Positions 14,917 to 61,161 are shown, counted from the first letter of the stretch. The stretch is DNA of 64,000 nucleotides from Rhodospirillales bacterium (GCA_018666775.1 JABIXC010000017.1:310001-374000), one strand, 5' to 3'. Notes: generated by a model not told the origin, from the sequence alone. Translations and numbers: made by a program.

Positions 14917-15105
14917 TGCCCTACCCCCTTTTTTTAATTTTTTTAAAAAGCGTTCCAGCAATTCAAGAACGTATCCATTAGGGTTAATTCTGGGTTTGTT
15001 TTATTTAAAATGCAACAAGATTGCATGTTTGGGTGGTTATGGACGGGTGTAAATTCAAACCAACACGTATAAGAACCCATCGCAGATATTATTTGGATTG
15101 ATAAA

Positions 15106-42459: not shown

Positions 42460-42462
42460 GCA

Positions 42463-43035: not shown

Positions 43036-43134
43036 CGCAATCTCCCTACTCCCTCCCGCATCGCCAGAATATCTTGTTCCGTTTCTTCATGCGGAGTACC
43101 ATTAACCAATCAAACACGCTTAAAGGCACAGTAA

Positions 43135-44557: not shown

Positions 44558-45139
44558 TTATTTAGGATGGGCCATCCCTGCCTTAACCCCGGGGCGTTCC
44601 CCTACTTCGCTAATCCAGCGTGAAACATTTTTGTATTCGCTGATTGGGAACATAGCTTCGTCAAATCCGGCAATGCGCGGATACAAACAAAGATCAGCGA
44701 TAGAAAATGAATTTGTGAAAAACTGATTGTTCGCAAGATGATCATCGATCACCTTCATCACCCTTTCACATTCAGGTATCAAGGTTGGATGCCTTTTCAG
44801 CGCACCCAAAAATGCCACCGATCCATTCATGTGCAACATGAACCATTTTTGAACCTCTACCCGTTCAGATGCATCCTGGCCATACAGCTTTCCAGATTTA
44901 TCTGCGGCATACAGCAATATCGCGCCAGATTCAAAAACTGTCGTGGCTTTGCCGCCGGGGCCATCAGAATCAATGATGACCGGAATCTTTCCATATGGAT
45001 TACGCGCAAGGTGTTCCGGGGTTTGTTGTTCTTTTTTCTGCAAGTTAATGGGGTGGACTGTGTATTCAAGCCCAGCCTCTTCCAACCCGATCGAAGCCCG
45101 GCGTGAATTAGTTGTTGCCCACATATAAAGATCAATCAT
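44558..45139 (-). CDS. Glutathione S-transferase (YfcG-like)
   Basis: A 193-residue cytosolic GST. The thioredoxin-like N-terminal domain has TTNSRRASIGLEEAG, NPYGKIPVI with the cis-Pro and FESGAILLYAA; the helical C-terminal domain ends SIADLCLYPRIAGFDEAMF, the usual N-capping box region. Resembles the YfcG/Ure2-like class of disulfide-bond oxidoreductases. Last gene of a probable minus-strand operon (TAXI-like, DUF120, Fe-S protein, GST), 16 bp after the Fe-S protein gene. Confidence 0.87.
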   Translation of the reverse strand: MIDLYMWATTNSRRASIGLEEAGLEYTVHPINLQKKEQQTPEHLARNPYGKIPVIIDSDGPGGKATTVFESGAILLYAADKSGKLYGQDASERVEVQKWFMLHMNGSVAFLGALKRHPTLIPECERVMKVIDDHLANNQFFTNSFSIADLCLYPRIAGFDEAMFPISEYKNVSRWISEVGERPGVKAGMAHPK

Positions 45140-45155
45140 CTAAATTCCCTGTATC

Positions 45156-46067
45156 CTAAACTGTTTCTTTTGGTGTCTTGTAACCCAGTTTTTTGCGATC
45201 CCGCATAAAGGCGATGTAATCATCGCGGTGGTTGTCTGCATTGTACGGACAAACATCAACGCACAAGTGACAGTATTCTTTGCGCAGCCGTGAATAGGGG
45301 TAACATTTTTCTGTATCAATCACCCAACGCTTGATCCCTTCGGTCATGATCGGGGTATCAACAATGGCATCACCCGGACAATTTTTGAGACAGACCTGAC
45401 ACACCGTGCAGCGTTCCTGAACCCCAAAGGACATTGGCGCATCGTAAGCCACGGGTAAATCGGTCGTAATAAATGATGGCCTGAAACTGGCACTGATATC
45501 GGGATTAATCAGACTGCCATTTTTTCCCAATTCCCCCCAGCCACATTGCCACATGACCGGGATTGCCTGAACGTAGCTGCCTGCATTGTGATGGGCGACG
45601 GCATCCCAACCTAGTTCTTCCCTGATCCACAACACCATTTCAGTCGCAATTTTGGCGACGGTATAATACGCGCGATGCGCTTCATCGCTGACAAATTGGG
45701 GGCCTTTCAGAACTTCGTCATAGCTTTCATGGTGGCCAAAGGCGATGACGTTGGTGTATTTGCAATCAACCCCTTCGTCAATCATCACCGGCGATATTTT
45801 GCACATGCCGACCAGATCGGCACCGCATTCTTTGGCGCGCTCACGGATACGATCTGACATTTCTTCTTTGTCTCTAACATCCAGTCGCGCAGGCCCCACG
45901 GGGCCTTCCAGATGTTGGCCCATGTCCTCAATGGCATTGCGAAAGCTTATGCGCTTTTCTGATTGGTGTTTGTAAAGCGGCACTTCGGTAATGCCCATCT
46001 GATCCATGACTTTTTTTAACAAAGGGTCATTGGGGCCTTGTATCCGTCTTTTGGTTATTCCCATCAT
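45156..46067 (-). CDS. Double [4Fe-4S] QueG/reductive-dehalogenase-like protein
   Basis: A 303-residue soluble iron-sulfur protein. The C-terminal ferredoxin part has C220, C223, C226, C230 and C255, C266, C269, C273, enough for two 4Fe-4S clusters. Before it is a region like the cobalamin-binding fold of RdhA/QueG (WGELGKNGSLINPDISASFR then FITTDLPV). No Tat signal, so unlike respiratory dehalogenases it should be cytoplasmic. This makes it a candidate for a corrinoid- or flavin-linked reductase rather than a respiratory RdhA. It lies between a DUF120 gene and a GST gene in one operon. Exact substrate unknown. Confidence 0.75.
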   Translation of the reverse strand: MMGITKRRIQGPNDPLLKKVMDQMGITEVPLYKHQSEKRISFRNAIEDMGQHLEGPVGPARLDVRDKEEMSDRIRERAKECGADLVGMCKISPVMIDEGVDCKYTNVIAFGHHESYDEVLKGPQFVSDEAHRAYYTVAKIATEMVLWIREELGWDAVAHHNAGSYVQAIPVMWQCGWGELGKNGSLINPDISASFRPSFITTDLPVAYDAPMSFGVQERCTVCQVCLKNCPGDAIVDTPIMTEGIKRWVIDTEKCYPYSRLRKEYCHLCVDVCPYNADNHRDDYIAFMRDRKKLGYKTPKETV

Positions 46068-46088
46068 GATTAATAGCCTATTCAGAAA

Positions 46089-46505
46089 TTATGCTTCAGG
46101 GGTATCACTGGATGTAAAAACCGTCACTTCCACTAAATCACCATCTTTTAATTCAAGGCTGTCGCGTAAATTTACAGGCGCGATAATTTCCACCTTGTCG
46201 GATGGATAATCAGCGACCTTTGGCAAAACGATGGTGCCAACCTGTTTCAAACCCACAACAGCTGGGAAAAGTTTTACAGCACACTCTGACCCATCATGTG
46301 CAGCCATTTCCATGGCAACCGATGCCTGGACCGATTCCCATGCCACAATGTCTTTGGATTCTGTCAATTGAAGGTTAAGGGTACCGGGCCAGGGATCAAA
46401 AAAGACCAGTTCCTTGAAAGCATTCTTTGCCCATGGTTCCGCCACAAAAGAAGCGGCTTCACCCTTACCCACGACCAGAATGCCTGAAAATGTAATATCA
46501 GCCAT
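46089..46505 (-). CDS. DUF120 protein, homologue of CTP-dependent riboflavin kinase
   Basis: A 138-residue protein matching the archaeal CTP-dependent riboflavin kinase (RibK, DUF120) fold in order: GKGEAASF (13-20), PWPGTLNLQL (39-48) and EIIAPVNLRDSLELKDGD (106-123). In archaea these regions bind CTP and riboflavin. In bacteria riboflavin kinase is normally RibF, so the role here (FMN formation, phosphorylation of a flavin analogue, or binding only) is open. Located 6 bp after a TAXI-like gene and 21 bp before the double-Fe-S protein gene. Small and soluble. Confidence 0.72.
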   Translation of the reverse strand: MADITFSGILVVGKGEAASFVAEPWAKNAFKELVFFDPWPGTLNLQLTESKDIVAWESVQASVAMEMAAHDGSECAVKLFPAVVGLKQVGTIVLPKVADYPSDKVEIIAPVNLRDSLELKDGDLVEVTVFTSSDTPEA

Positions 46506-46511
46506 TGGCGC

Positions 46512-47411
46512 CTACGAAAGAAGACCCGCTTCACGAAACGCGGCAAGGGCGCCCGGATGAAGCGGTGTGTTATCGGGTGCCAATGCGTCCTGGCCCTTAA
46601 CGCGCGCGCCCTGAAGCAGGGCTGTTAGGCCCCTGAACAAGGCATTACGGGTGGCCAGATCATCGGTATGGCGAATATAGGCTGCGACAAAATCGTGAAC
46701 AAAGTCTGGATCACAGTCTGCTGCGCTAACAATCACATTTAAAACCCCAACGGTCGCGATATCGTTGTTCATGGTTGGGACGTGTTCAGCGGGGATGTTT
46801 GCCGGAAAATAAAACGGGATGGCATCACATAATGTTTTGATCTCATCATCAGAGAAAGCCAAAACCTTGATCGGCATCATGTCACACAGCGCCTTGAAAT
46901 GGGTGCTGGGAATGGGTGCTTGAAGCTGGGCATCGATTTCACCACTGGCCAATGCATTGCCGCCATCAAAGGTCGATATGAAGGAAAATTCAACACCCCC
47001 ATCGCCCCACCCCAAGGTGCGAACGAAATTATAGGCATGTTGGGCCATCCCGGAATCTGCGTGTCCAACCGCGATCCGCTTGCCTTTAAGGTCCGAAAAA
47101 GTCTTTAGGGGCGAATCTTCGGGGCAGACGAAAAACAAAGGCCCGGTATTCAAAGGCGTGGCAATGGCCACAGGCACGGGTGCGGTGAAGGGGGCTGAAC
47201 CAGAAACAGCCCGGGGTACCCAGTTTGACGCCATAAAGCCAATTTCTGCATCACCAGACACCGTTCTTTCGGCGTTCATGACGCTGCCGGTTGATTCCAT
47301 AACCTCAACCTCTGTTGCCAGGCCTTCTTCAACCAAAACATCGCCGATATCGCGGGCCTGGGTATAAAACGTGCTGAGCAGGTCGGAAGAGGTAATTCTA
47401 ATTTTTGTCAT
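46512..47411 (-). CDS. TAXI/NMT1-like solute-binding protein lacking a signal peptide
   Basis: A 299-residue protein with the two-lobe fold of TAXI-family TRAP and NMT1-like receptors: ITSSDLLSTFYTQARDIGDVL, GEAEIGF-like (GDAEIGFMASN), FSDLKGKRIAVGHADSGMAQHAYN and ALASGEIDAQLQAPIPSTHF. The ATG at 47411 is chosen; a TTG at 47426 would add only 5 residues. Neither start yields a signal peptide, so the protein would remain cytoplasmic unless a distant start exists. No TRAP membrane subunits are present. First in a four-gene operon. Confidence 0.75.
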   Translation of the reverse strand: MTKIRITSSDLLSTFYTQARDIGDVLVEEGLATEVEVMESTGSVMNAERTVSGDAEIGFMASNWVPRAVSGSAPFTAPVPVAIATPLNTGPLFFVCPEDSPLKTFSDLKGKRIAVGHADSGMAQHAYNFVRTLGWGDGGVEFSFISTFDGGNALASGEIDAQLQAPIPSTHFKALCDMMPIKVLAFSDDEIKTLCDAIPFYFPANIPAEHVPTMNNDIATVGVLNVIVSAADCDPDFVHDFVAAYIRHTDDLATRNALFRGLTALLQGARVKGQDALAPDNTPLHPGALAAFREAGLLS

Positions 47412-47556
47412 TTCTGAACCATTCAATAATCAAATGAAAGGGGGCGCTCCCCCCCAACAATTGAGGGACGCCAGCTTTCGTTATAGGCCATTCAAGGGCA
47501 TCAAGAAAGGTTCTTACACGGCCATATGGCCTTGAAATTGGCCATTCCCTTGGCTT

Positions 47557-47967
47557 TTAGTGCAAAACTCTGGGCGGTGTTGGTTCGGGGGCACTTTTGG
47601 GGACGTGTTCTGTCAACCCCGCTTGATGGTGCAACATTTTCCAACCGTCTGTTTCGCGGACGAACAAATTGGTCGCCACAAGATAGCTGTCTCCAATTGC
47701 CTCAAAACAGATGACATAAGCGAGATCACCCTCGATCTCCACGGTTGCTTCCAAGGGGTGAATGCCGGGTTCTGGCGGTGTGGCAAGAATGCCTTCCCAG
47801 GCCAGCATGACCTTGGTATGTCCTCGCACCGGTGGCCAGCCCGGGTGGATACAAGCGACACAATCGCGATCCGACCAAAGGGACTTCATCGCCGTAAAAT
47901 CACCTGCCGAAAATGACCTGTAAAAGGCTTCGTTAATGGCTAAAACGGCATCTGAGTCGTTTTCCAA
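47557..47967 (-). CDS. SnoaL/NTF2-like protein (DUF4440 type)
   Basis: A 136-residue NTF2-fold protein: AINEAFYRSFSAGDFTAMKSLW, CIHPGWPPVRGHTKVMLAWE and ATNLFVRETDGWKMLHHQAG are typical of the SnoaL-like/DUF4440 group. Small soluble protein; catalysis not predictable. It is divergent from the DMT permease gene and separated by 146 bp from the TAXI-like gene, so is probably monocistronic. Confidence 0.82.
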   Translation of the reverse strand: MENDSDAVLAINEAFYRSFSAGDFTAMKSLWSDRDCVACIHPGWPPVRGHTKVMLAWEGILATPPEPGIHPLEATVEIEGDLAYVICFEAIGDSYLVATNLFVRETDGWKMLHHQAGLTEHVPKSAPEPTPPRVLH

Positions 47968-48102
47968 TGCTATCCCCTCTCACTGGTCTGATCTTTTTCA
48001 TTGGCATGTATCTGTCCCAAGGCTAGCATGCCCGCGCCTTCAGGTCGCCCATTGTGGTCTGTGAACAATTCCGGCCTTTCACACCGCAATCAGGGAAAAT
48101 AT

Positions 48103-49068
48103 ATGTTCATTAATGAAACTGTGTCGAAAACAATTTCACCCTTGATTGATCGTTACTGGCGGGGATTACCCGGAAATTTTCGGGGCGCATTCTGGATGAT
48201 GCTATCAGCACTGGCTTTCATTGCTGTGCAGTCGGTTTCAAAGGAATTGGGCGGCAAGTTTGACAGCTTTCAGATCGCATTTTTCAGGGCCTTCTTTGGT
48301 GGCCTGGCTGTGTTGCCCTTTCTCTATTCACGCGGGTTTTCTGCCTATAAGACTTCCAACCTGCCCTTTCATATCGGCCGGGGTGTCTTTGGTGCCATTG
48401 CCATCTATTTGATGGTTTATGCCGTCATACACATGCCACTGGCCGATGCCACGGTAATCGGTTTTACCCGCACCTTCTTCATGATTATTTTTGCGGTGAT
48501 CTTTTTAGGCGAAATGGTTCGTTGGCGGCGCTGGGCAGCCACGGCAGTTGGGTTTTCTGGTGTTCTATTGATGCTGCGCCCCGGCGATGAGACGTTTCAA
48601 ATGGCCGCCCTTGCTGCGGTTGGCGCATCCGTGTGTTTCGCATCTGCCCATGTCTGTATCAAGAAATGCACTACCCGCAAAGACCACCCCATGACGATCC
48701 AGACCTATTACTGGACCATTGCGACCATCGTTACCTTCGTGCCTGCCCTTCTGGTTTGGGTTAACCCAACAGCCCACGATATGATGCTGATGGTTTTGGT
48801 TGGCCTGCTGTCTGGCATCGCCCAGACCCTTTTGGTCTATTCCCTCAATGCCGGGGAAGCCACCTTTGTGCATCCGTTTGATTTCACCCGCCTGATCTGG
48901 GCGGCATTGGCAGGTTGGCTGATCTTTTCCGAACCGCTCAGCATCATTACCATTGCCGGTGCAGCCATCATCATATCTTCCAATGTCTATATTGCCCGCA
49001 GGCAATTAAAAGAAAACAAGGAAAAGGCAGCGGCTGAGGCTGCAAAAGAATCAGGCGAAAAAGCCTGA
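48103..49068 (+). CDS. EamA/DMT-family permease
   Basis: A 321-residue protein with ten membrane helices in two EamA repeats: GAFWMMLSALAFIAVQSVSKEL..FF RAFFGGLAVLPFL (N half), and VGASVCFASAHVCIKK...YYWTIATIVTFVPALL (C half). AGGGA lies about 6 bp before the ATG at 48103, and the longer open frame from 48001 has no support. Drug/metabolite exporter superfamily, substrate unknown. C-terminal tail is charged and cytoplasmic. Confidence 0.88.
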   Translation: MFINETVSKTISPLIDRYWRGLPGNFRGAFWMMLSALAFIAVQSVSKELGGKFDSFQIAFFRAFFGGLAVLPFLYSRGFSAYKTSNLPFHIGRGVFGAIAIYLMVYAVIHMPLADATVIGFTRTFFMIIFAVIFLGEMVRWRRWAATAVGFSGVLLMLRPGDETFQMAALAAVGASVCFASAHVCIKKCTTRKDHPMTIQTYYWTIATIVTFVPALLVWVNPTAHDMMLMVLVGLLSGIAQTLLVYSLNAGEATFVHPFDFTRLIWAALAGWLIFSEPLSIITIAGAAIIISSNVYIARRQLKENKEKAAAEAAKESGEKA

Positions 49069-49074
49069 ACGAAT

Positions 49075-50037
49075 TTAAGGATTAATGACCCGGATGGGCT
49101 CGCCTTTTAGCCAGGCATCGATGTCTTCAATGCCTTGGTCGAAAAAGACCTTGTAGCCTTCATGACAGACATAACCCAGATGCGGCGTCGCAACGATGTT
49201 ATCATTGCTGCGGTATGGGTGATCCAAAGGAAGCGGTTCAATATCAAAAACATCCAGCCCGGCACCGGCAAGGTGGCCGCTGTTCACGGCATCAATCAAG
49301 GGCTGTTCCTTCACAATGGGGCCACGGGACGCATTGATTAAATAAGCCCCCTGTTTCATCCATTGCAGCTCTTTTGCACCGATTAAACCTCGGGTGCGGT
49401 CTGATAAAATAGTGTTGATAGAAACCACATCTGATTGCCCAAGCAAGGCTTCAAGGCTGTCAGCAAAACGCACGCCTTTTTCTTCACAGCGCGCATTCGT
49501 CAGGTTTTTGCTCCACGCAACCACATCCATATCAAATGCTTGTGCGTATCGGGCCATATAAGACCCCTGGCGCCCCAAGCCAATAATGCCAAGGGTTTTG
49601 CCCGTCAAAACATTGCCCAACCCCAACTGCCAACCGCCTTCGCGCACGGCTTGGACCTGTTGGGGGATGCGCCGCATGGTGGCCATCAACAACGCCCATG
49701 TCATTTCTGCGGCCGAATAGCCAATGGCCTCTGTGCCACACACAGGAATGCCACATGCCTTGGCCGCATCCATATCAATGCCAAGGTTGCGCATGTTCCC
49801 GGTCACCAAAAGTTTTAGATTGGGAAGCCGTGATATCAGCGATTTTGGAAAAGGTGTGCGTTCACGCATCACCACGATGATGTCGAATTCAGCCAACCGG
49901 TCGACAATGGCATCTTCTTCAAACAAATGATCCTTAAAGACCGTTATAACGCCGCGATCTTCCAGGACTGACCAATCAGAGACCTCGCGTACGACGCCCT
50001 GATAATCATCAAGAACAGCAATTTTCATTTTGGGCAT
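49075..50037 (-). CDS. D-2-hydroxyacid dehydrogenase
   Basis: A 320-residue D-isomer-specific 2-hydroxyacid dehydrogenase. It has the NAD motif LGIIGLGRQGSYMA, the catalytic Arg in INASRGPIVKEQPL, Glu in DVFDIEPLP and His in ATPHLGYV. Substrate might be a 2-oxo or 2-hydroxy acid from the upstream genes. Last gene of the probable operon running from the cupin at 56927, starting 2 bp after the VOC gene. It is unrelated in detail to the GhrA-like gene at 5288. Confidence 0.88.
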   Translation of the reverse strand: MPKMKIAVLDDYQGVVREVSDWSVLEDRGVITVFKDHLFEEDAIVDRLAEFDIIVVMRERTPFPKSLISRLPNLKLLVTGNMRNLGIDMDAAKACGIPVCGTEAIGYSAAEMTWALLMATMRRIPQQVQAVREGGWQLGLGNVLTGKTLGIIGLGRQGSYMARYAQAFDMDVVAWSKNLTNARCEEKGVRFADSLEALLGQSDVVSINTILSDRTRGLIGAKELQWMKQGAYLINASRGPIVKEQPLIDAVNSGHLAGAGLDVFDIEPLPLDHPYRSNDNIVATPHLGYVCHEGYKVFFDQGIEDIDAWLKGEPIRVINP

Positions 50038-50039
50038 AC

Positions 50040-50867
50040 CTATTCGTCCGTGACGTCAATCCAATTGCCATCAGGATCTGCTAATTGCATTTTTCCCAAC
50101 GCACAGTCCGCCAAAAGCAACCGGCGGGTTTCTGATTCCTGACTGCTGCCACCCAATGGCCGTGCTGCAAGATAGGTGTTTTTTTCACCCACCCGCGTCA
50201 ATTCCTTTTTGAAGGCTTCGAGATCAGGAACCTTAATGCCAATGTGGTCGGGGCCGGGACGTTTAATAGACATGCCTGAAAAGTTTTTGATATCCCATTG
50301 CATGATCGACAACGTGACCCGCCCATCGGTTAGATGATAACTGCCATTAGAATCGGTGACATTGGCGCGTTGCAATTCGAACACGTCTTCATAGAATTCG
50401 GCGCATGCTTCGGCATTTACCGTGCGAATGGCAAACCGGCGAAGCTGGCATTCATTTTGGTCTTTCCATTCGTCTTCTTTTTGATCGGCATAGACATCTT
50501 TCAAATTGTCGCCTTTGCGTTCCGCCAGATCAAAAACATTGCCATCAGGGTCATGGCCGGAATAGGCCGCAAAAGGCCGATAGCTTGGCCGTTTGACCAC
50601 ATTGGTCTTTGGATGCTTTTTCTGCATCCGTTCCAAAACGTCATCTATGGAATCAACAACCAAACCGAAATGATCAAACCCACCGGTGTAACCATCGCGT
50701 CTTGGTAAAATGTTTAACCCAACATAACCATCCCCAACCACGCAAGATGCTTCCGCATCATGATCGGCACGCCCTGAGGTCTTTAACTTGAAAATAGACC
50801 GATAGAACCGTTCCAAAATTGGGTATTGATGGCTGATCATGGCCATATGGTTAAGTTGGGCAAACAT
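50040..50867 (-). CDS. Two-domain VOC protein (extradiol dioxygenase-like), copy A
   Basis: A 275-residue protein of two vicinal-oxygen-chelate domains. Domain 1 has LNHMAMISHQYPILERFY, FDHFGLVVDS and GHDPDGNVFDLAE; domain 2 has FAIRTVNAEACAEFYEDVF, GPDHIGIKVPD and DPDGNWIDVTDE. The first metal-ligand histidine expected at the start of domain 2 is Arg here (RRFAIRT), whereas copies B and C keep His. At the usual Glu site of both domains Asp appears. Overall similar to ring-cleavage dioxygenases or glyoxalase-type enzymes. Paralogous to the genes at 52055 and 52920. Confidence 0.82.
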   Translation of the reverse strand: MFAQLNHMAMISHQYPILERFYRSIFKLKTSGRADHDAEASCVVGDGYVGLNILPRRDGYTGGFDHFGLVVDSIDDVLERMQKKHPKTNVVKRPSYRPFAAYSGHDPDGNVFDLAERKGDNLKDVYADQKEDEWKDQNECQLRRFAIRTVNAEACAEFYEDVFELQRANVTDSNGSYHLTDGRVTLSIMQWDIKNFSGMSIKRPGPDHIGIKVPDLEAFKKELTRVGEKNTYLAARPLGGSSQESETRRLLLADCALGKMQLADPDGNWIDVTDE

Positions 50868-50905
50868 GTCTTACTCCTTAAAGCGATTTGGTTTTTTCAG
50901 AAGAA

Positions 50906-52018
50906 CTAGCTTCTTTTCTTCTTCTTTTTCTTCTTTTTGTTCTTACAGTTTTTCGGATCCGTAAAGGTCTTGCACTTGATCGTGCCACGACGCTTCATTG
51001 CAGCCTTGGCCTTTTTAACCAGTTCCGGGGAAATACCAACAATGTCGTTCACCGATTGGCTTAAAGCCTGCCAGGTGGTGGGATAGAGATCAAATTTTCG
51101 CTTCTTTTGTTCCTTGACGAATTTAGGATCAGCAATCGTCGCTGCAAAGGCTTTGCGCAATGCTGCCAGCCTGTCTGCGGGCACACCCGGCGTGGTCAGA
51201 TACGGCCGACCAAGGGCCACGGAGCCGGAAAACAATTTGAAAATTTCACGCTGTTTTTTGTTTTTTGCAAGATCAACCAACAACGGCACACCGGCAGGAC
51301 CACGGGCGCGATCAAGACCGACCTGGACCAAAAGATTGACCTTGTTGCTGCGCAACCAATCGGGGTGGTTAAGCGCAAGCGAGCCATATGAATAACCGCT
51401 CCGGGCCATCACTTCGCCCCGTTCCATGGCAAGATCAATATTACCGGCCCGGCGATAGCCAATAACAATCTTGAACTTTGTGCCCAAAATATTATTCATC
51501 AATGTTGGGTAAACCACGGTGCCTGATCCGCTGCCTGTACCGCCAGAAATGACAGTCATTTTTTTGGCGTCTTCAATGGTCTTCACACCAGCTTTGTGCC
51601 ACACGGCCGTCATCAAGTTGCTGATGCCGGTTGAGCCAAGCCAATTGAATTTGCGGGCATCAAAACGAACGCCCTTGCCATTAATGGCCTGATGCAGGGG
51701 GATGGAATTGCCGATGGTGGCAATATAAGTGCCGTCCTTCGCTGCCCTGGTGTACATGAAATTTGATGCCCGAACATGGCCCGCACCCGGCATGTTTTTA
51801 ACGATCATCGTGGGAGAACCACCCAAATGATTGGGCATGTGGCGTGCAATGGTGCGCGCGATCAAGGTGTAGGTGCCGCCGCCCGCACTAACGATCAAGG
51901 TAACGACCTTACCCTTATAGAACTTAGAGATGGCATCTGCATGCGCACCCGGCACCATTGAAACTGCCAACCCGGCAGCGATCATGGCACACGTTGCTAT
52001 TTTCTTCACATGTATCAT
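50906..52018 (-). CDS. TctC-like solute-binding protein with poly-lysine tail
   Basis: A 370-residue exported protein: signal peptide ending GAHADA, then ISKFYKGKVVTLIVSAGGGT, NMPGAGHVRASN and RAAKDGTYIATIGNSIPLH, as in tripartite-tricarboxylate SBPs. AGGGAG is 6 bp before the ATG at 52018. The tail is unlike the other TctC copies: CKTFTDPKNC followed by a run of nine lysines and ending RS. No TctAB subunits are nearby. It sits between two VOC genes in the operon. Periplasmic; ligand probably an organic acid. Confidence 0.82.
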   Translation of the reverse strand: MIHVKKIATCAMIAAGLAVSMVPGAHADAISKFYKGKVVTLIVSAGGGTYTLIARTIARHMPNHLGGSPTMIVKNMPGAGHVRASNFMYTRAAKDGTYIATIGNSIPLHQAINGKGVRFDARKFNWLGSTGISNLMTAVWHKAGVKTIEDAKKMTVISGGTGSGSGTVVYPTLMNNILGTKFKIVIGYRRAGNIDLAMERGEVMARSGYSYGSLALNHPDWLRSNKVNLLVQVGLDRARGPAGVPLLVDLAKNKKQREIFKLFSGSVALGRPYLTTPGVPADRLAALRKAFAATIADPKFVKEQKKRKFDLYPTTWQALSQSVNDIVGISPELVKKAKAAMKRRGTIKCKTFTDPKNCKNKKKKKKKKRS

Positions 52019-52054
52019 CGTGGTCTCCCTGTGCATTTCAAAAAATGGATTTTT

Positions 52055-52861
52055 CTATTCTTCGTTAAGGTGAATATAGACGCCCTCAATATCGGTCAAA
52101 TGACCGGTGCCAAGGGGGCATTTTTTAAACATATCCAATCGTGCTTCACCTTCCATCCCGTACCCAATAGAGCGGGCCCGAAGATGCGGGTTTTGGCCTG
52201 TCAGGTCATCAAGGTCTTCCATGACCTTATCGACGCTTTCAACCTTGAAGCCAATGTGATCGGGGCCAAGACGCTGTGGGTCCATATCGGCAAAGTCTTC
52301 CATTTTCCATTGCAAAATGGCCAGAGTCATATTCCCATCGGTCAGATAATAATTATCGTCATCGAATTTTTTATTGAGAGGAGTCATATCAAACACCTCG
52401 CTATAAAATTGGGCGCACCGTTCGCCATGCAGGGTGCGCAGGGCAAAATGGTCAAAATGACGTGTGGTTGGCTCTAGTTTTTCGGCATAAACATCTTCCT
52501 GAAAACCGATGCCCCGTTGCGAAATATCAAAAATATTTGCATCTGGGTCATGGCCTGAAAATGCAGCATAAGGCCGCACGGGGGGACGTTTGATGGCCAC
52601 CAGTGATGAATCAAACTTGGTAATCTTGTCGATTGTGTCTTCGATGTCTTCAACTTCAAAACCGAAATGATCCAACCCAGAACAGCGACCATCACGCCGT
52701 GGCACGATGTTCATCCCAACCACACCATCACTGACGACTTGGGCGCGGGCGGGACGAAAATTCTTGGCGGCCCTTAAGCCAAAAAGCGCCTGATAATAGA
52801 GGGCATTCATTGCGTAATAATCAGAGGCAATGGCGATATGGTTCAGCTTTGCTGTTCCCAT
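52055..52861 (-). CDS. Two-domain VOC protein (extradiol dioxygenase-like), copy B
   Basis: A 268-residue paralogue of copy A. Domain 1: LNHIAIASDYYAMNALYYQ, LDHFGFEVED and GHDPDANIFDISQ. Domain 2: FDHFALRTLHGERCAQFYSEVF and GPDHIGFKVES, ending VYIHLNEE. Histidines at ligand-like positions are present in both domains. Between the VOC gene copy C (57 bp upstream) and the TctC-like gene. Possibly a ring-cleaving or lyase/isomerase activity with a divalent metal. Confidence 0.82.
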   Translation of the reverse strand: MGTAKLNHIAIASDYYAMNALYYQALFGLRAAKNFRPARAQVVSDGVVGMNIVPRRDGRCSGLDHFGFEVEDIEDTIDKITKFDSSLVAIKRPPVRPYAAFSGHDPDANIFDISQRGIGFQEDVYAEKLEPTTRHFDHFALRTLHGERCAQFYSEVFDMTPLNKKFDDDNYYLTDGNMTLAILQWKMEDFADMDPQRLGPDHIGFKVESVDKVMEDLDDLTGQNPHLRARSIGYGMEGEARLDMFKKCPLGTGHLTDIEGVYIHLNEE

Positions 52862-52919
52862 GATTTGGTACTCCTTTAAACTTTTACTAATTGGTGACTG
52901 TTGTTAAACAGGTCAGAAT

Positions 52920-53711
52920 TTATTCGACGATATCGAGCAATATTCCGTCAGGGTCAGACATATGGAAAGAACCAATGGATGTTCGTTGCAACATTTCCAG
53001 ACGCTTTGCACCTTCTGGCCCTGTGCCAATTGGTGCAGGTGCGATCAATGGATTGTTATCCGCAATGTCTTGGACTTCTGCCTTGAAGGCTTTCATGTCT
53101 TTAACCTTGAAGCCGATGTAATCAAGACCCGGGCCAACAATGCCGCCGCCGGCATAATCATTCAAATCCCACTGCAAGATGATCAAGGTCATCCGGCCAT
53201 CGGTCAGGCCATAAGCGCCTTCAGGAACCTGATTTGACGGTTTTAAATCAAACACTTCTGCATAGAATTCTGCCATTTTTTCGGCATTCATCGTGCGCAG
53301 GCCAATGTGGCTAATGGTGCGTTCCTGATCCCAATCATTGTGGGTGTAAACATCTTTCATGTTCGCCCCACCCGCCTCGGTCAGGTCAAAAACATTGCCG
53401 TCGGGGTCATGGGTCGAATAAGCAGCAAAGGGGCGCGTGTCAGGGCGCTTCAAAACGGTCAGGCCACGGCTTTCCAAATCCTTTACCTTGGATGCAAGTT
53501 CATCCACCTGAATACCGAAATGATCCAAACGAGCGGGCCGACCAGCACGCCGGGGATTGATGTTCATGCCAACATAGCCATCACCAATACTGACCGCGCG
53601 GGTAGGACGCGCTTTTGGTGAATTTTTCATACCGAACATGGATTCATAAAACTTTGATTCAAGCGCGTAATTGCCGCTCATGATCGCAACATGATTAATT
53701 AGGGATGGCAT
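52920..53711 (-). CDS. Two-domain VOC protein (extradiol dioxygenase-like), copy C
   Basis: A 263-residue paralogue: domain 1 with INHVAIMSGNYALESKFYES, LDHFGIQVDEL and THDPDGNVFDLTE; domain 2 with ISHIGLRTMNAEKMAEFYAEVF and GPGLDYIGFKVKD, where the second ligand histidine of domain 2 is replaced (LDYIGF), and DPDGILLDIVE at the end. A GGAGG ribosome-binding site precedes the ATG. 62 bp after a TctC-like gene. All three VOC copies share the architecture and probably arose by duplication. Confidence 0.82.
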   Translation of the reverse strand: MPSLINHVAIMSGNYALESKFYESMFGMKNSPKARPTRAVSIGDGYVGMNINPRRAGRPARLDHFGIQVDELASKVKDLESRGLTVLKRPDTRPFAAYSTHDPDGNVFDLTEAGGANMKDVYTHNDWDQERTISHIGLRTMNAEKMAEFYAEVFDLKPSNQVPEGAYGLTDGRMTLIILQWDLNDYAGGGIVGPGLDYIGFKVKDMKAFKAEVQDIADNNPLIAPAPIGTGPEGAKRLEMLQRTSIGSFHMSDPDGILLDIVE

Positions 53712-53773
53712 ATTCGTTCCTCCTTGCGGGGCCAGTTTTGGGGCACCATTGTGTTTGCTGTGGGCTGATTGCC

Positions 53774-55078
53774 CTATTTACATTTAACTGATTTGGCCTC
53801 CGCGCCATTGCCGGCATAGGTGACGGCGCACTTCATACCGACCTTTAAATTCTTTCGTTTGGTTTTCTTTCCGCCGAGAAATACTTTTGTCCGGCTGCCT
53901 GAAACCTTAACCTTGTGGGCCGCACCTTTGACCTTAAAGAACAGGCGGCGGCCGCCCCGCTTTGTTCCAGTCAGGGTTATATCGACCGTTTTAAGGCTCG
54001 ATTTTTTAACCGTGACCTTGGTCTTTGATGTCCGTTTGGTCACCTGTCCTGCGGATTCAATAATATCTTTCGGCGTTGCATAAATGCGGACCAGCAGGTC
54101 TTCGATTTTTTTGCCTGGCATCGAATCGACACCCAAACCAATGGTCGTCATCTGTTTCACAAATGCCTTGTCTCTCACAGTAGCATCAAACGCCTTACGC
54201 AGGGCTGCTACCCTCGTCTTGGGAATGCCCGGAGGCGCCAGAATTGGGCGACCCATCAACTGAGCCGCCAAAAGAAGCTCAAGGATTTGTTTGTCACGCT
54301 TGTTCTTTACAAAATCCATAATCAGCGGGATGCCGGGCACGGCTCCAGATTTTTTGAGACCAATTTCCAGCAGGAATTTGATTTTTTTATCCCTGAGCCA
54401 CGGCCCACGGGTCGCCCGAATAGACCCGATTGACCATGAACACCGACCATCAATTTCACCGCGTTCCATCGCCAGATTGATCGCGTCCCCTGACCCATAA
54501 CCCGTAATCAACTGAATTTTGGTACCGAACATATTGTTCAAAAGATGCGAAAAAATATCCGTATTGGCACCCGGGCCAAGGCCCCCTGCGACAAAGGTAA
54601 CTTTTTTCAAATCATTCGCCGTATTCAAAGCTGAGGTATGCCAGGCAACGCAAAAACTTGATGACGTATCAATGGAGCCAAGCCAGGTGAACTTTGACGG
54701 GTCATATTTAATGCCCCCGCCCTTATGGTAAAGCGGCACCGTCGAAACAGCACCCCGATGGATCATCCCCATCACCGTGCCATCGCGTTTCGCCCGGTTA
54801 AACATATGATTGGCTGCAACAATACCGCCCGCACCCTGCATATGGGTGGGCCGGATCGTCGGGTTCCCCGGCATATGGTTTTTCATGTAGTGAATAAAGG
54901 TGCGGGAATAGGTCGAATACCCCCCACCCGTACCGGCGGAAATAATAAAGGTTACCCGCTTGCTCTTATAAAAATCAGCAACAGGATCAGCAATGGCCGT
55001 GCCAGAGACGGACAGCGAAGCCCCGGTTAAAGCCAGCGCGGCAACGCCCGCAAATAATTGCTTCTTTAAAACCTTCAT
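53774..55078 (-). CDS. TctC-like solute-binding protein with extra C-terminal domain
   Basis: A 434-residue exported protein: signal peptide ending GTAIA, mature start DPVADFYKSKRVTFIISAGTGGGYSTYSR, then HMQGAGGIVAANHMFN and KRDGTVMGMIHRGAV. The SBP core ends near residue 330. The tail contains VTVKKSSLKTV, TKRGGRRLFFKVKG and VSGSRTKVFLGGKKTKRKNL, with two cysteines at the end (GMKCAVTY and VKCK). GGAGAG precedes the ATG. Close relative of the next gene at 55123 (tandem duplication). No membrane transporter partner in the window. Confidence 0.83.
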   Translation of the reverse strand: MKVLKKQLFAGVAALALTGASLSVSGTAIADPVADFYKSKRVTFIISAGTGGGYSTYSRTFIHYMKNHMPGNPTIRPTHMQGAGGIVAANHMFNRAKRDGTVMGMIHRGAVSTVPLYHKGGGIKYDPSKFTWLGSIDTSSSFCVAWHTSALNTANDLKKVTFVAGGLGPGANTDIFSHLLNNMFGTKIQLITGYGSGDAINLAMERGEIDGRCSWSIGSIRATRGPWLRDKKIKFLLEIGLKKSGAVPGIPLIMDFVKNKRDKQILELLLAAQLMGRPILAPPGIPKTRVAALRKAFDATVRDKAFVKQMTTIGLGVDSMPGKKIEDLLVRIYATPKDIIESAGQVTKRTSKTKVTVKKSSLKTVDITLTGTKRGGRRLFFKVKGAAHKVKVSGSRTKVFLGGKKTKRKNLKVGMKCAVTYAGNGAEAKSVKCK

Positions 55079-55122
55079 ACGTTCACTCTCCAATTATGTT
55101 TAACCTGTTTGATGAATGCTGG

Positions 55123-56430
55123 TTACGGGCATTTAACAGAAGCGGCTTCACTGCCATTACCTTTGTAGATGAACGTGCATTTCATGCCGACTTTCAGGTT
55201 TTTCCGTTTGGTCTTCTTGCCTTTGATAAAGACTTTCGTGCGGCTGCCGGAAACCTTAACCTTGTGGGTCTTGCCGTCTTTACCCTTGAAGAACAGACGA
55301 CGTCCGCCCCGCTTCGTGGCTGTCAATTTGGTGGTACGCTTTAAAACCGGGTTCATCTTGACGGTGGTGTGAAGCCGGTCCATGCGCGACAGGGCTTCTT
55401 GAGCAGATGCCACAACATTTTTTGGAATGGCATACAGCTTCGTAATCAAGGCTTCGATTTCTTTGCCCGACAATGGATTAATGTCGACCCTGCGCTTTTT
55501 GGCATCGGCCAAAAGCTTGGGGTCAACCATGGCCGCGCTAAAGGCAGCTTGGAGGGCTGCCAAACGGTCGGCTGGAACACCAGGAGGTGCCAGGAAAGGC
55601 CGACCCATCGCCTGGGGTGCCAGAACCAGTTCAAGAATGGCGCGCTGTTCCTTGGTGGTTGCGTAATCTGTGATGATGGGGGTTTTGGAAAGACTGGGGT
55701 GCTTGTTAAGTGCCACCTGCGTCATCAGCGTCAGTTTGCCGTCACGCAGCCAATCGGGCTGGGTTGCGGTGATCGATGACCAGGACCAACCACAACGACC
55801 CTGAACCTCACCCCGTTCCATGGCCAGATTAATGGCTTGGCCTGAAGAATAACCCGTGATCATCTTGAACTTGCTGCCGAAAATATTGTTGAAGATGCGC
55901 GGATAAATATCCGTGTCCGAACCCGCAGCAATACCGCCAACAATCAAAGGCTGTTTCAAGACATCATCAAATGTCTTCACCTTCTGGGTGTGCCAGGCAA
56001 CACAGAGGCTGACGGATTGGTTCATGGATCCGATCCATTTAAACTTGGTCGGATCATATCGCACGTTTTTGGAACTGAAAATTGGCAGGGTGGAAATAGC
56101 ACCGCGATGAATCAGCGCGATCACCGTGCCATCCTTGGGGGCCTTGTGATAGAGCCAGTTGGCCGCAACCAGTCCCCCCGCACCTTGGCGGTGCTGCTTG
56201 ATGAATTTTGGGTGACCCGGGATATGACGCCCCATATTGCGCGTCAAAATACCAGAGAATGTGGAATAACCACCACCGGGACCGGCACTCAAGATCACCT
56301 TGATGACCTTGCCCTTATAAAAATCCGCAACAGAACCAGCGGATGCCTGAACGGAGGATAAGGCCGATATGCCAGTTGCCAGAACAATGGCTGAACTGGT
56401 CGCTGCAATGTTTCGGATGAGCGTTTTCAT
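55123..56430 (-). CDS. TctC-like solute-binding protein with extra C-terminal domain
   Basis: A 435-residue exported protein: signal peptide ending SVQASA, then DFYKGKVIKVILSAGPGGGYSTFS, HRQGAGGLVAANWLYH and KDGTVIALIHRGAISTLP. The C-terminal ~65 residues have TKRGGRRLFFKGKDG and VSGSRTKVFIKGKKTKRKNL, ending in SVKCP. The domain boundary is the same as in its neighbour at 53774. The ATG overlaps the upstream cupin gene stop by 4 bp, so the two are translationally coupled. Ligand unknown. Confidence 0.83.
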   Translation of the reverse strand: MKTLIRNIAATSSAIVLATGISALSSVQASAGSVADFYKGKVIKVILSAGPGGGYSTFSGILTRNMGRHIPGHPKFIKQHRQGAGGLVAANWLYHKAPKDGTVIALIHRGAISTLPIFSSKNVRYDPTKFKWIGSMNQSVSLCVAWHTQKVKTFDDVLKQPLIVGGIAAGSDTDIYPRIFNNIFGSKFKMITGYSSGQAINLAMERGEVQGRCGWSWSSITATQPDWLRDGKLTLMTQVALNKHPSLSKTPIITDYATTKEQRAILELVLAPQAMGRPFLAPPGVPADRLAALQAAFSAAMVDPKLLADAKKRRVDINPLSGKEIEALITKLYAIPKNVVASAQEALSRMDRLHTTVKMNPVLKRTTKLTATKRGGRRLFFKGKDGKTHKVKVSGSRTKVFIKGKKTKRKNLKVGMKCTFIYKGNGSEAASVKCP

Positions 56431-56927
56431 CGTTTCGGGTCCCTTGTAATGGTGCCGCCTTCATCAACATAGCGTTCACCAGATGTAATGTTATAGCGCT
56501 GGGGTTCGCAATCGGTGCGCCCGCTGGATTTCGTTTCCGGGGCAAAAGCACCAATTTGAAGAAGCTCAAGTTCTTCATCGCTACAGCTTTCAAACCAATA
56601 GCGGGTATAGGCCGGGGTGATGATGCCTTCCTGGGGACCAAATTCGCCCAGCACTTCATCGTTTACGCCGTAAAAGCGCACCCTGCCCTTTAAAACCATC
56701 CAGAAGCTATCGGCATCGGTGTGGTAATGAAGGTTGTTTTCACCGCCTGATTTCACATTCTGAACCACGCCGCGAACGTTGCCGCCCCGACCCAATTCAA
56801 TGCGCGCCTTATCGGTGCCAATGCCTTCTGGTTTTTTGTAAGAAAAAACCTTGATGTCTTTTTCCGCGTTTTCAATACGCGCAAGCAAATCGGGATCAAG
56901 GTTATAAATTGCTGCACTATCAGCCAT
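56427..56927 (-). CDS. Cupin-domain protein
   Basis: A 166-residue single cupin, unrelated in detail to the triple set at 42-43 kb. Motif 1 is NLHYHTDADSFWMVLKGRV (HXH with Asp at the usual acidic position) followed by GEFGPQEGIITPAY and FESCSDEELELLQIGAF. Conventional metal-site spacing. First gene of the 49-57 kb minus-strand operon and coupled by a 4-bp overlap to the TctC-like gene. Might be a sensor or a small enzyme on the imported compound. Confidence 0.78.
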   Translation of the reverse strand: MADSAAIYNLDPDLLARIENAEKDIKVFSYKKPEGIGTDKARIELGRGGNVRGVVQNVKSGGENNLHYHTDADSFWMVLKGRVRFYGVNDEVLGEFGPQEGIITPAYTRYWFESCSDEELELLQIGAFAPETKSSGRTDCEPQRYNITSGERYVDEGGTITRDPKR

Positions 56928-57156: not shown

Positions 57157-58464
57157 GTGAATACCCCTGTTAAACTGGTCCCTGCCAAATCAGGTAATTT
57201 CTTCATGACGTCCGTTCGGGAAAATCCCGGTGGTTGGGTTGTTGTCTTCGTTATGTTTCTGGCCCTTTCAATGGTGTCTGCAACCAGAGCCTCCATAGGG
57301 CTTGCCATGCCTAGTCTTGAACTGGAAATGGGCTGGTCCCGCAGTTACATTTCCACCATTGTCGCTTGGTCCCTGATTGCCATGGCAATCACCAGCCCCT
57401 TTGTTGGCAATCTTTTAGACCGGTTTGGTCCGCGCAATATTTTGCTGGCAGGGTTGATCTTGGTCGCCATCGCACTTGGCATGACATCACGAATCACATC
57501 GGCGTGGCAGTTCATGCTGTCCTACTCACTGCTTGCTGGAATCAGTTTTGGCATTGTTTCCAAAAATGTGGCATCGGCCACCATTGCGCGGCACTTCACT
57601 GAAAATCGCGGTTTTGCGGTTGGCGTTGCCAATGCGGGCGCCACTGCCGGCCACATTGCATTACTGCCCGTCATGGCATTGATATTGACGTTCTTTGGCT
57701 GGCGTTATGGCTATTTGTTTTTGGCCTTTGCAGCCCTTGCCCTGTTGCCGGTGGTTTGGTTCCTGATCAAACCTGACAAAGACGCCCAAAGTGCCCGAAA
57801 AAGCGCTGAATTGGTCAGCGGAAGTCTTGGGCTTCGTTTGAAAATACTGTTTAAAAACAAAACGTTCCTTGCTTTATTGGGCAGTTACACCATTTGTGGA
57901 TTCACCGCCACCGGCATGATTGATACCCACTTTTTACCTTATGCAATATCTTGTGGTATTCCCATTGTTGTGGGGGCATCGGCTTACGGCGTCTTGGCGG
58001 CATTCAACATGGGGGGCATGGCCTTATCGGGCTATTTATCAGACCGCATTAACCGGCCCATTTTGCTGGCTGTCATCTACATCATGCGCGGGCTTTCCTA
58101 TATTCTTTTGCTGCTGATCCCAACATATGATGTCAACCTGATCTGGGTGTTTGCCGTTGTCTTTGGCATTTTCGATTATTCCACCATTCCCGTAACCACA
58201 TCTTTGGTGGCGACCCATGTTGGCCTAAAAACAATCGGGTTGTCCCTTGGGGTATTGGCGATGTTCCATGCTGCAGGTGGGGCGCTGGGTGCTTTCCTTG
58301 GGGGCTATCTTTACGACATGTTCCAAAAATATGATGGGGTTTGGGTGGCAGCTATATCTGTTGCAATGATCGCAGGCGTGCTGGTATTGACGATTAAGGA
58401 AAACAGAGGCCCTGCCCCTGATACTGAAATTACACCGGATCCAGCAGGCGCACCGGCTCAATAA
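57157..58464 (+). CDS. MFS transporter (OxlT/monocarboxylate-like)
   Basis: A 435-residue major facilitator with twelve helices. MGWSRSYISTIVAWSLIAMAI and GNLLDRFGPRN in the first half, LAGISFGIVSKNVASATIARHF (helix 4-5) and GALGAFLGGYLYD later are typical of the oxalate/formate and monocarboxylate-like MFS groups. The start is GTG at 57157. Divergent from the SBP/VOC operon and likely to import or export a related organic acid. It is followed 11 bp later by a GcvR-like ACT protein gene. Confidence 0.86.
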   Translation: MNTPVKLVPAKSGNFFMTSVRENPGGWVVVFVMFLALSMVSATRASIGLAMPSLELEMGWSRSYISTIVAWSLIAMAITSPFVGNLLDRFGPRNILLAGLILVAIALGMTSRITSAWQFMLSYSLLAGISFGIVSKNVASATIARHFTENRGFAVGVANAGATAGHIALLPVMALILTFFGWRYGYLFLAFAALALLPVVWFLIKPDKDAQSARKSAELVSGSLGLRLKILFKNKTFLALLGSYTICGFTATGMIDTHFLPYAISCGIPIVVGASAYGVLAAFNMGGMALSGYLSDRINRPILLAVIYIMRGLSYILLLLIPTYDVNLIWVFAVVFGIFDYSTIPVTTSLVATHVGLKTIGLSLGVLAMFHAAGGALGAFLGGYLYDMFQKYDGVWVAAISVAMIAGVLVLTIKENRGPAPDTEITPDPAGAPAQ

Positions 58465-58475
58465 GGGTGACAACC

Positions 58476-58991
58476 ATGAACGCGACATATCTTGTATCCG
58501 TATCGTGTCCGGACCGAACCGGTCTGGTTGCGGCCATTACCGCCCGGTTGTTTGATCTTGGTGGCAATCTTGGGGACACAACCTTTGCCGTCTATGGCAC
58601 AGAGGCCGAATTTACGACCCTCGTGGACATGCCAGACAGCCCAGGCGCTGATAAATTAAGATCAGAACTGGCCGACCTGGATCAGACCAAGGGTGCCACC
58701 ATTAACGTGACCCCATTCGATCGATCGACCGATCATGGGGCTTTAACGCGCGGCACACACACGATTACCATCAGTGGGGGCGATCAACCGGGCTTTATCG
58801 CCCGTATAACAGAGGTTTTCGTGGAATTCCGGGCTAATATCATCCATTTGGAGGCCTTTCGTGACCAAAACCGTTACACAACCCGGTTTTCAGTCGCTAT
58901 TTCGGCTAAAAATGCCGATAAATGCCTTGCCACTGTCGCCAATACTGCGGAATCGCTCGACCTGACCTGCGGCACAGAACAAATTAATTAA
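58476..58991 (+). CDS. GcvR-like protein with two ACT domains
   Basis: A 171-residue protein of two tandem ACT domains: VSVSCPDRTGLVAAITARLFDLGGN in the first and TITISGGDQPGFIARITEVFVEFRANI in the second, the arrangement in the glycine cleavage system repressor GcvR and related sensors. AAGGG about 8 bp before the ATG at 58476 supports this start over GTG at 58467. It would bind an amino acid and may control its neighbours or a partner protein; no GcvA homologue is nearby. Confidence 0.8.
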   Translation: MNATYLVSVSCPDRTGLVAAITARLFDLGGNLGDTTFAVYGTEAEFTTLVDMPDSPGADKLRSELADLDQTKGATINVTPFDRSTDHGALTRGTHTITISGGDQPGFIARITEVFVEFRANIIHLEAFRDQNRYTTRFSVAISAKNADKCLATVANTAESLDLTCGTEQIN

Positions 58992-59045
58992 TTACCTTAA
59001 TAAAGTTTTATAATTAGCTGTTTTTAATTATTAAATATCATTTCA

Positions 59046-60383
59046 ATGAACCTGATATTCTTTTTGATTGTCGCTGTATCCTTCTTCGTAACCGGGTTGC
59101 GTGAACTGCTATGGCATGGCGCGCCTGCGGGTGCTGTTGGCAAAGCGGCCTTGTCGCCAATGTCTGCTTTAGGCCAGGGCATGGTCGATCAGGCCGGAGC
59201 ATCGGTAACCCTTGCCATTGGGCTTATTGGGGTCATGGCTTTGTTTTTGGGGCTGATGAAAGTGGCCGAGGCCGGTGGCTTATTGGTCATCATTGCCCGC
59301 ACCATACGCCCCCTTATGACCCGCCTTTTCCCTGATGTCCCCGCAGATCACCCGGCAATGGGTGCGATGATCCTGAATTTTTCTGCCAATATTCTGGGAT
59401 TGGGCAATGCCGCAACGCCTTTTGGCATTCGCGCCATGCAGGAACTGGATCGCCTGAACCCGGTCAAAGGCACGGCCACCAACGCTATGGTGCTTTTTCT
59501 GGCCATCAACACGTCATCCATCACGATCTTGCCAACCGGCGTCATTGCTTTGCGTGCAGCGGCTGGTTCCACAGACCCCGCAGCCATCGTGCCCACCACC
59601 CTGTTTGCGACCATTTGCTCCACTGCCATCGCCATCTTTGCGACCAAACTGTATCAGCGCTGGTCGCCGGTAACAGAGCCCGAAGCCGGGGACCTGCCAA
59701 CAGCACCAGCCCTTGGCGACCCTGATCCGGCCCAAAGCCCCGAAATAGATGGTTTTGATGACTCTATGGCCACCCATGCTGGCTATCCCACCTGGGTATC
59801 TGTTTTAGCATTGGGATTTATTATCGCCCTGGTGCCCATCACCATTTTCTGGGGCCGCGCCATATCGCCGTGGATCATTCCCGGTATTATGCTGACCCTT
59901 TTGTCCTTTGGCTTCTTCCGTGGGGTCAGGGTTTATGAATCCTTTGTCGATGGGGCCAAAGACGGGTTCAGCGTTGCGGTTCGGATCATCCCCTATCTGG
60001 TGGCAATTTTGGTTGCCGTTTCCATGCTGCGATCATCGGGCGCGCTGGAAATGTTTATTTCCCTGATCAGCCCCTATTCCGGTGCCGTGGGACTGCCTGC
60101 AGAAGCCCTGCCCATGGCATTGTTAAGGCCGCTTTCGGGGTCCGGGGCGTATGGCATTTTGGCATCCATCATCAACGATCCAGCCATTGGCCCAGATTCA
60201 TATGCCGGATTGCTGGTCAGCACTTTGCAAGGTTCCACCGAAACCACATTCTATGTTTTGGCCGTTTATTTCGGGGCTGTCCAAATACGCCGCATTCGCC
60301 ACGGGCTTGCCGCTGGTCTGACCGCAGATGCGGCAGGGATTGCAGCGGCCGTTATTATTTGCATGCTGCTGTTCACACCCTGA
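59046..60383 (+). CDS. SpmA-SpmB-like fusion with two Gate/nucleoside-recognition domains
   Basis: A 445-residue membrane protein that joins SpmA-like and SpmB-like halves. First half: LGLMKVAEAGGLLVIIARTIRPLMTRLFPDVP and MGAMILNFSANILGLGNAATPFGIRAMQELDRLN, the SpmA Gate-domain signature. Second half: SVAVRIIPYLVAILVAVSMLRSSGALEMFI and LPMALLRPLSGSGAYGILASI, SpmB-like. The two are separated by an acidic loop (~225-245). In Bacillus these genes are separate and linked to spore maturation; Gram-negative fusions are presumably transporters. 54 bp after the ACT gene. Confidence 0.85.
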   Translation: MNLIFFLIVAVSFFVTGLRELLWHGAPAGAVGKAALSPMSALGQGMVDQAGASVTLAIGLIGVMALFLGLMKVAEAGGLLVIIARTIRPLMTRLFPDVPADHPAMGAMILNFSANILGLGNAATPFGIRAMQELDRLNPVKGTATNAMVLFLAINTSSITILPTGVIALRAAAGSTDPAAIVPTTLFATICSTAIAIFATKLYQRWSPVTEPEAGDLPTAPALGDPDPAQSPEIDGFDDSMATHAGYPTWVSVLALGFIIALVPITIFWGRAISPWIIPGIMLTLLSFGFFRGVRVYESFVDGAKDGFSVAVRIIPYLVAILVAVSMLRSSGALEMFISLISPYSGAVGLPAEALPMALLRPLSGSGAYGILASIINDPAIGPDSYAGLLVSTLQGSTETTFYVLAVYFGAVQIRRIRHGLAAGLTADAAGIAAAVIICMLLFTP

Positions 60384-60435
60384 TCGGCCTGCTAAATTCA
60401 TTTCAACAAAAACACTTAAAACAGGGAGTAACTCC

Positions 60436-61161
60436 ATGGCATTTTCCAGCTGGCGCGGCGTCGTAGGCATGATCAACCCCACCATGCGTCCAGGCATGAC
60501 CGAAGAGGTCATCCGCCTGTTGCCCGAAGGCATCGGTATCATTCCGCTGTTCATCGACATCACCAAGGGCACGCGCGAAGAATTTGAGACCGTCATGGCG
60601 GGCTATGAAGAACAGATTGAACGCCTTGTTCCCCATGAACCGGACTTCATTCACCCCAACGGCGCGCCGCCCTTCATGGTCCACGGCCTTGCAGGGGAAG
60701 CAAAGATTGTTGATGACTGGGAAAAGAAATACAAAATTCCCATCTTTACCGCCGGTCAGAACCACATTGCCGCCATGCATGCTTTGGGCATCAAATCCTT
60801 TGTCGGGGCCACCTATTTTTCAGGTGAGATCAACAACACCTTCAGCACCTATTTCACCGATGCCGGCTTTAATGTCCAAGCCATGGCCGGGATTGATGTG
60901 CCCTTTAACAAGGTTCAGGAACTGTCTGGTGAAATGATCTACAGCCACATCAAAAAGGAATTTCTGGCCCAGACCTCTGCCGATGCGATTTACATGCTGG
61001 GCTCAGGCTGGCGAACACTCGACATCATTGAATTGCTGGAAGAAGACCTGTCAGTGCCCGTGATTCATCCGGTTACAGCGCGTGTTTGGGAATTCCAGAA
61101 ACGCCTTCACGTCCATGAACCCCGTGAAGGCTATGGGTATTTACTCTCAGAATTGCCCTAA
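60436..61161 (+). CDS. Asp/Glu racemase superfamily protein (maleate isomerase/arylmalonate decarboxylase-like) without cysteine
   Basis: A 241-residue protein aligned by pattern with the maleate cis-trans isomerase/arylmalonate decarboxylase group: GVVGMINPTMRPGM near the start, FIHPNGAPPFMVHG where the first catalytic Cys usually lies, GIKSFVGATYFSGEINNTF in the middle and IYMLGSGWRTLDII where the second lies. I count no cysteine at all in the protein, so the normal Cys-based mechanism cannot operate. GGGAG is 8 bp before the ATG; the longer open frame from 60328 overlaps the previous gene and is rejected. Soluble; substrate unknown. Confidence 0.75.
   Translation: MAFSSWRGVVGMINPTMRPGMTEEVIRLLPEGIGIIPLFIDITKGTREEFETVMAGYEEQIERLVPHEPDFIHPNGAPPFMVHGLAGEAKIVDDWEKKYKIPIFTAGQNHIAAMHALGIKSFVGATYFSGEINNTFSTYFTDAGFNVQAMAGIDVPFNKVQELSGEMIYSHIKKEFLAQTSADAIYMLGSGWRTLDIIELLEEDLSVPVIHPVTARVWEFQKRLHVHEPREGYGYLLSELP

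Follow-up and report, generated by a model that had tools for sequence, protein, structure and literature searches.

A conserved, putative catabolic-uptake operon combining two-domain VOC proteins with permease-less TctC-type receptors in an alphaproteobacterium

What is the function of an operon that encodes three TctC-like solute-binding proteins, three two-domain VOC proteins and no permease? The question is raised by eight genes at positions 49075–56927 of a 64,000-nucleotide stretch of DNA, here called the window, from a Rhodospirillales bacterium (GCA_018666775.1, JABIXC010000017.1:310001-374000). The source genome is an alphaproteobacterial assembly of 2.41 Mb in 19 contigs, 98% complete, and records related to it are labelled Rhodospirillales, Rhodospirillaceae or Alphaproteobacteria. 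The cluster, an undescribed combination of known protein families, is real and conserved, and is most likely catabolic. On balance, it is probably a conserved operon for the uptake and catabolism of carboxylated, possibly aromatic, compounds, with receptors that lack a permease of their own.

All eight open reading frames lie on the minus strand. Read 5′ to 3′, they encode a cupin (56427–56927), TctC1 (55123–56430; 435 aa), TctC2 (53774–55078), VOC1 (52920–53711), VOC2 (52055–52861), TctC3 (50906–52018), VOC3 (50040–50867) and a D-2-hydroxyacid dehydrogenase (49075–50037). Successive genes are separated by −4, 44, 62, 58, 36, 38 and 2 bp, values that assume the likely ATG starts of TctC2 at 55078 (not TTG 55093) and of TctC3 at 52018. 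An initial annotation of this DNA had described eight genes in one direction, with short gaps or 4-bp overlaps and no TctA, TctB or other permease among them. The layout was recovered as described, Pfam agrees with the names given, and no permease is encoded in the block, which therefore holds no complete TTT transporter (TctCBA). Each of VOC1, VOC2 and VOC3 contains two Glyoxalase/VOC domains, and PF00903 scores above the cut-off in all three proteins. The dehydrogenase carries the catalytic and NAD-binding domains of the 2-Hacid_dh families, both above their cut-offs (PF02826, 185.7 bits; PF00389, 35.8 bits), and reached no NCBIfam equivalog cut-off. The cupin has a single Cupin_2 domain (Pfam) and homologues in relatives; its HxH motif is present (NLHYH), and the late metal-binding His position is apparently occupied by Tyr (TRYWFE).

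The initial annotation had regarded the cluster as undescribed and held that its gene order should recur in other genomes, absence counting against it. The order was found: a core of VOC1-VOC2-TctC3-VOC3 is common to seven genomes of three genera, the source included, and the dehydrogenase, cupin and TctC1 accompany it in most of them. TctC3 is the TctC gene that is retained with the operon in all seven. Full-length VOC1 relatives occur in 9 of 11 genomes of the family (source genome counted); in the rest of the class, 2 of 85 genomes gave marginal, partial matches only. Six related loci (L069-L074), from genera g4 (four genomes) and g5 (two genomes), share the layout of the window: an MFS gene, TctC1/cupin, VOC1, VOC2, TctC3, VOC3 and, where the contig extends that far, the dehydrogenase. 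The conserved block spans approximately 18 kb, from a GST gene (44558) to the gene MFSb (62360), includes the divergent MFS gene, and its orthologues are mostly 55–80% identical. TctC2 has no counterpart at the operon in any of these six loci, and the order of cupin and TctC1 is reversed in relatives with respect to the window. Genus g3 (L079, L080) has a cluster of the same ingredients in a different order, and genus g2 gave no VOC match.

Generally high synteny was considered as the cause of this conserved order and rejected on a small baseline of two other window genes, which are often absent or without conserved neighbours. The gene at 21547–22521 is missing from all g4 genomes and, where present, lacks its window neighbours; the gene at 7332–8648 is missing from g3, g4 and g5. 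By this small baseline, synteny between the window and these relatives is not general.

Do the three VOC genes reflect a recent expansion? VOC1, VOC2 and VOC3 are approximately 40% identical to one another, compared with 69–78% to their own orthologues. In a phylogenetic tree, V1, V2 and V3 form three fully supported clades of seven family orthologues each, and V2 and V3 join sequences of other taxa before joining each other. A recent triplication is thus rejected by the tree in favour of three separate, old clades. The triplication that the initial annotation had taken as a sign of a family of related substrates is not supported; the broader interpretation in that annotation, of an undescribed catabolic and uptake cluster, is.

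The association of VOC with TctC genes extends beyond this family. A scan of genome contigs yielded loci with VOC relatives from Xanthobacteraceae, Beijerinckiaceae, other Hyphomicrobiales, Betaproteobacteria, Binatia, Eremiobacterota and others, and their neighbouring genes were assigned by profile searches. Of 58 loci outside the family, 28 have a TctC gene no more than 600 bp from the VOC relative, usually 3–200 bp downstream on the same strand, and VOC-TctC is therefore a recurring gene pair. The number of TctC genes per kilobase falls with distance from the VOC gene: the first kilobase has 33 (103 flanks), the second has 9 (95 flanks), and the six that follow have 4, 3, 4, 4, 2 and 1. In three Binatia loci (L147, L148 and L160), VOC and TctC are followed by a protein with TctA-like sequence, as read by eye. 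Recurrences of the pair span Proteobacteria and Binatia at least. The open-access literature searched contained nothing relevant on this combination. The pairing ties permease-less receptors, a long-standing puzzle since the Bug proteins of Bordetella, to a defined enzyme family, and makes the substrates of receptors and enzymes testable jointly.

Other neighbours of VOC relatives bear on the substrate. Some loci encode a gentisate 1,2-dioxygenase (480.7 bits; cut-off 442.1) or a UbiD decarboxylase above its curated cut-off. Further neighbours in some loci are a 3-hydroxybenzoate 6-monooxygenase-like protein and an α/β hydrolase whose best matches are HsaD and BphD, neither of which reaches its cut-off, as well as a thiamine diphosphate (ThDP) enzyme and a Rieske protein whose C-terminal domain is of LigXa type. 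These neighbours support carboxylated, often aromatic, substrates, and give substance to the link with aromatic compounds made in the initial annotation; they do not indicate the VOC reaction itself.

The same annotation suggested that the VOC proteins are extradiol dioxygenases that cleave the ring of catechol- or gentisate-like substrates. They do share the VOC superfamily and the tandem domain architecture of type I enzymes such as BphC and catechol 2,3-dioxygenase, and some relatives adjoin the hydrolase of meta-cleavage type or the gentisate and hydroxybenzoate genes described above. Type I extradiol dioxygenases carry a His-His-Glu metal site in the C-terminal domain. In the VOC proteins studied here, the best-kept metal pattern is instead N-terminal and ends in Asp: H/H/D (H7, H64 and D109 in VOC1, start Met counted) is present in 61 of 62 VOC sequences, including all three from the window. 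Furthermore, residues R88, P89, R92, D101, P102 and D108 (alignment numbering, which is VOC1 numbering minus one) are invariant in all 62, and the motifs KRPxxRPF and HDPDGNxFDL are conserved.

The C-terminal site is more variable. It reads H/H/[DE] in 41 of the 62 sequences and differs from this in the three window proteins, with H/Y/D throughout clade V1, R/H/D throughout V3, and H/H/D in V2 except for window VOC2, which has H/H/H. The His-His-Glu triad is thus absent from the C-terminal domains of the window VOC proteins. The extradiol signature PS00082 matched none of the 62, even with Glu relaxed to Glu/Asp, and membership of the type I extradiol family is rejected for this reason. Profile matches to catechol 2,3-dioxygenase in the PDB reach E values of only about 0.1. 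Extradiol cleavage therefore appears unlikely. Ring cleavage, one possibility among several, is unproven and only a guess, because of the N-terminal 2-His-1-Asp pattern, the invariant arginines and the lack of a match to the extradiol signature.

The nearest PDB profile matches of the VOC proteins are glyoxalase I, methylmalonyl-CoA epimerase and FosA. In FosA, two histidines bind the metal, and the VOC N-terminal domain aligns with both positions. These matches raise a second alternative, in which the VOC proteins would be non-redox metal enzymes (isomerases, epimerases or lyases acting on hydroxy- or oxo-acids) that work with the dehydrogenase and an AMDase-like protein on non-aromatic acids. 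The dehydrogenase of the operon would fit such a pathway, and so would two kinds of gene in its conserved flanks, AMDase-like and MFS of lactate/oxalate type. However, the PDB matches are marginal (E values of 1e-4 to 1e-3), and elsewhere VOC relatives sit near aromatic-acid genes, so that this alternative is rather doubtful, if a little less so than extradiol cleavage. The window proteins also differ from FosA and glyoxalase I in their two tandem VOC domains, in the KRPxxRPF and HDPDGNxFDL motifs, and in a context that is catabolic and not one of resistance.

How would a substrate reach such enzymes? The three binding proteins match the TctC family PF03401 with E values of 4.6e-7 (TctC3), 1.1e-5 (TctC2) and 4.5e-4 (TctC1). 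With 30.1 bits, TctC3 alone passes the Pfam cut-off of 27 bits; the remaining two, at 25.6 and 20.3 bits, fall short of it. A profile of the group matches TctC and Bug structures, terephthalate-binding protein chains included, with E values down to 7e-19. The N-termini of the TctC proteins resemble signal peptides, as judged by eye. Twelve TctA genes, fewer than the TctC genes, are found elsewhere in the genome and could serve TctC1, TctC2 and TctC3 in trans. Bordetella and Rhodoplanes similarly have more TctC than TctA genes, with many, mostly orphan, receptors per genome and few membrane subunits (PMC5994714). In contrast to the Bug proteins of those genera, 35 TctC-like proteins of the source genome bear a C-terminal module, described below, and TctC genes are paired with VOC genes.

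A further candidate for entry is the divergent MFS transporter at 57157–58464 on the plus strand, which resembles monocarboxylate and oxalate-formate antiporters. Lactate, bile-salt and oxalate/formate carriers give its best scores, none of which reaches the cut-off. The initial annotation had named this gene as the possible importer, and its position beside the operon in all six g4 and g5 loci is in keeping with that role.

Orphan receptors might also serve sensing or sequestration without catabolism, with the TctC proteins as signalling receptors and the VOC proteins as FosA-type binders or detoxifiers. Orphan TctC proteins can signal, an example being BctC, cited in PMC5994714 and PMC4996985, and the alignment of both FosA metal-binding His positions would suit such a binder. 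The block, however, contains no sensor kinase or regulator, and the long co-retention of three VOC clades with a dehydrogenase suggests a pathway; sensing or sequestration alone is quite improbable.

It is proposed instead that the operon serves catabolism and uptake. The orphan TctC-type receptors would bind one or a few related carboxylates, possibly aromatic, in the periplasm, and the substrate would enter the cytoplasm either through the MFS carrier encoded divergently or through a TctAB permease whose genes lie elsewhere. In the cytoplasm, the three two-domain VOC proteins would be specialised metalloenzymes, with a 2-His-1-Asp metal site in the N-terminal domain of each, and may convert the substrate or intermediates derived from it. 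An oxo- or hydroxyacid product may then be handled by the D-2-hydroxyacid dehydrogenase.

Several observations weigh against this proposal. The wider loci were selected by VOC similarity, several of them share a genome and are not fully independent, and their neighbouring gene families varied. The window operon lacks a meta-cleavage hydrolase or ring hydroxylase. The PDB matches of the VOC proteins are weak and span one domain or less, and the searches yielded no member of this VOC subfamily whose reaction is known. Finally, TctC1 is not beside the operon in genome G007, and both TctC1 and the cupin are missing in G003.

The least expected finding, and perhaps the most unusual part of the cluster, is the C-terminus of the receptors. 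TctC1 and TctC2 end in a basic module of approximately 70 residues (the CT module) with two invariant Cys, many Lys and Arg residues and a mean isoelectric point (pI) of 11.0. It spans 55129–55341 in TctC1 (71 residues) and 53777–53986 in TctC2, both on the minus strand. The source genome contains 43 matches, assigned to 41 reading frames (G000: L009-L037 and L196-L207; within the window, additionally 13618–14961). Thirty-five of these frames are TctC-like, five are of SBP_bac_6/8 type and one is a lone frame of 105 residues; the profiles used for this assignment were built partly from the same proteins, but for the five, Pfam gives independent placement in SBP_bac families. The module ends 0–2 residues before the stop codon in every frame, and two proteins bear two copies. 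The lone frame (L205; G000:C17:464400-466000) is mostly CT module, and is either a broken-gene remnant or a free-standing module.

The module occurs in all 11 genomes of the family, with 7 to 64 matches each. In the class sample, it was found in 10 of 385 genomes, from three families, and in the phylum sample of 398 genomes in the source genome only. Pfam searches with 24 members returned only weak, scattered matches (B3, OB-fold and CusF), no PDB match fell below an E value of 0.89, and the open-access literature searched contained no description of it. Identity with a known domain is rejected on the lack of a convincing Pfam family or PDB entry. Docking to one type of permease is unlikely, since the module is present on both TctC and SBP_bac_6/8-type proteins.

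TctC3 does not carry the CT module. It ends in two Cys followed by approximately 8–12 mostly Lys residues (50909–50974, minus strand; CKTFTDPKNCKNKKKKKKKKRS), a tail that is kept in all six g4 and g5 orthologues. As the CT module is carried by receptors of two unrelated kinds, a shared part in localisation may be inferred in place of docking to a single permease. Tentatively, the module, or the TctC3 tail, might form a lineage-specific localisation or docking system by which dozens of receptors, belonging to two unrelated types, are routed or anchored to one common site in the envelope. The CT module would then be a common means for one bacterial family to handle some 40 receptors together, regardless of transporter class.

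Beyond the operon, the dehydrogenase gene is followed directly on its 3′ side by a hairpin that resembles a terminator and has a T-rich tail (49068–49051, minus strand); a scan found about as many such hairpins as in shuffled sequence, so that it counts as weak evidence. The flank 3′ of the MFS gene (58467–61161, plus strand) encodes an ACT-domain protein, a Gate-domain membrane protein and the AMDase-like protein (60328–61161). AMDase-family genes likewise lie near TctC genes, which are often orphan, in AMDase clusters with TTT receptors (PMC4996985), a text in which the word ‘glyoxalase’ is absent. In contrast to those clusters, the window protein has no Cys after its likely start near 60433; the catalytic Cys of AMDase is therefore not available to it, and it is not a Cys-dependent enzyme of the family.

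The opposite flank (44558–49068) encodes GST, reductive-dehalogenase-like, DUF120, TAXI-like, SnoaL and EamA proteins. Conserved within the block are a 4Fe-4S protein (45156–46067), whose match to the reductive dehalogenase family is below cut-off (98.5 against 160 bits), and a DUF120/CTP-dependent riboflavin-kinase-like protein (46089–46505), a family known mainly from archaea. A TAXI-type TRAP binding protein (46512–47426) shows no signal peptide by eye and is possibly cytoplasmic. Adjoining the conserved block are three tandem cupin genes (41863–43707; 190–198 aa), with a single match in related locus L073.

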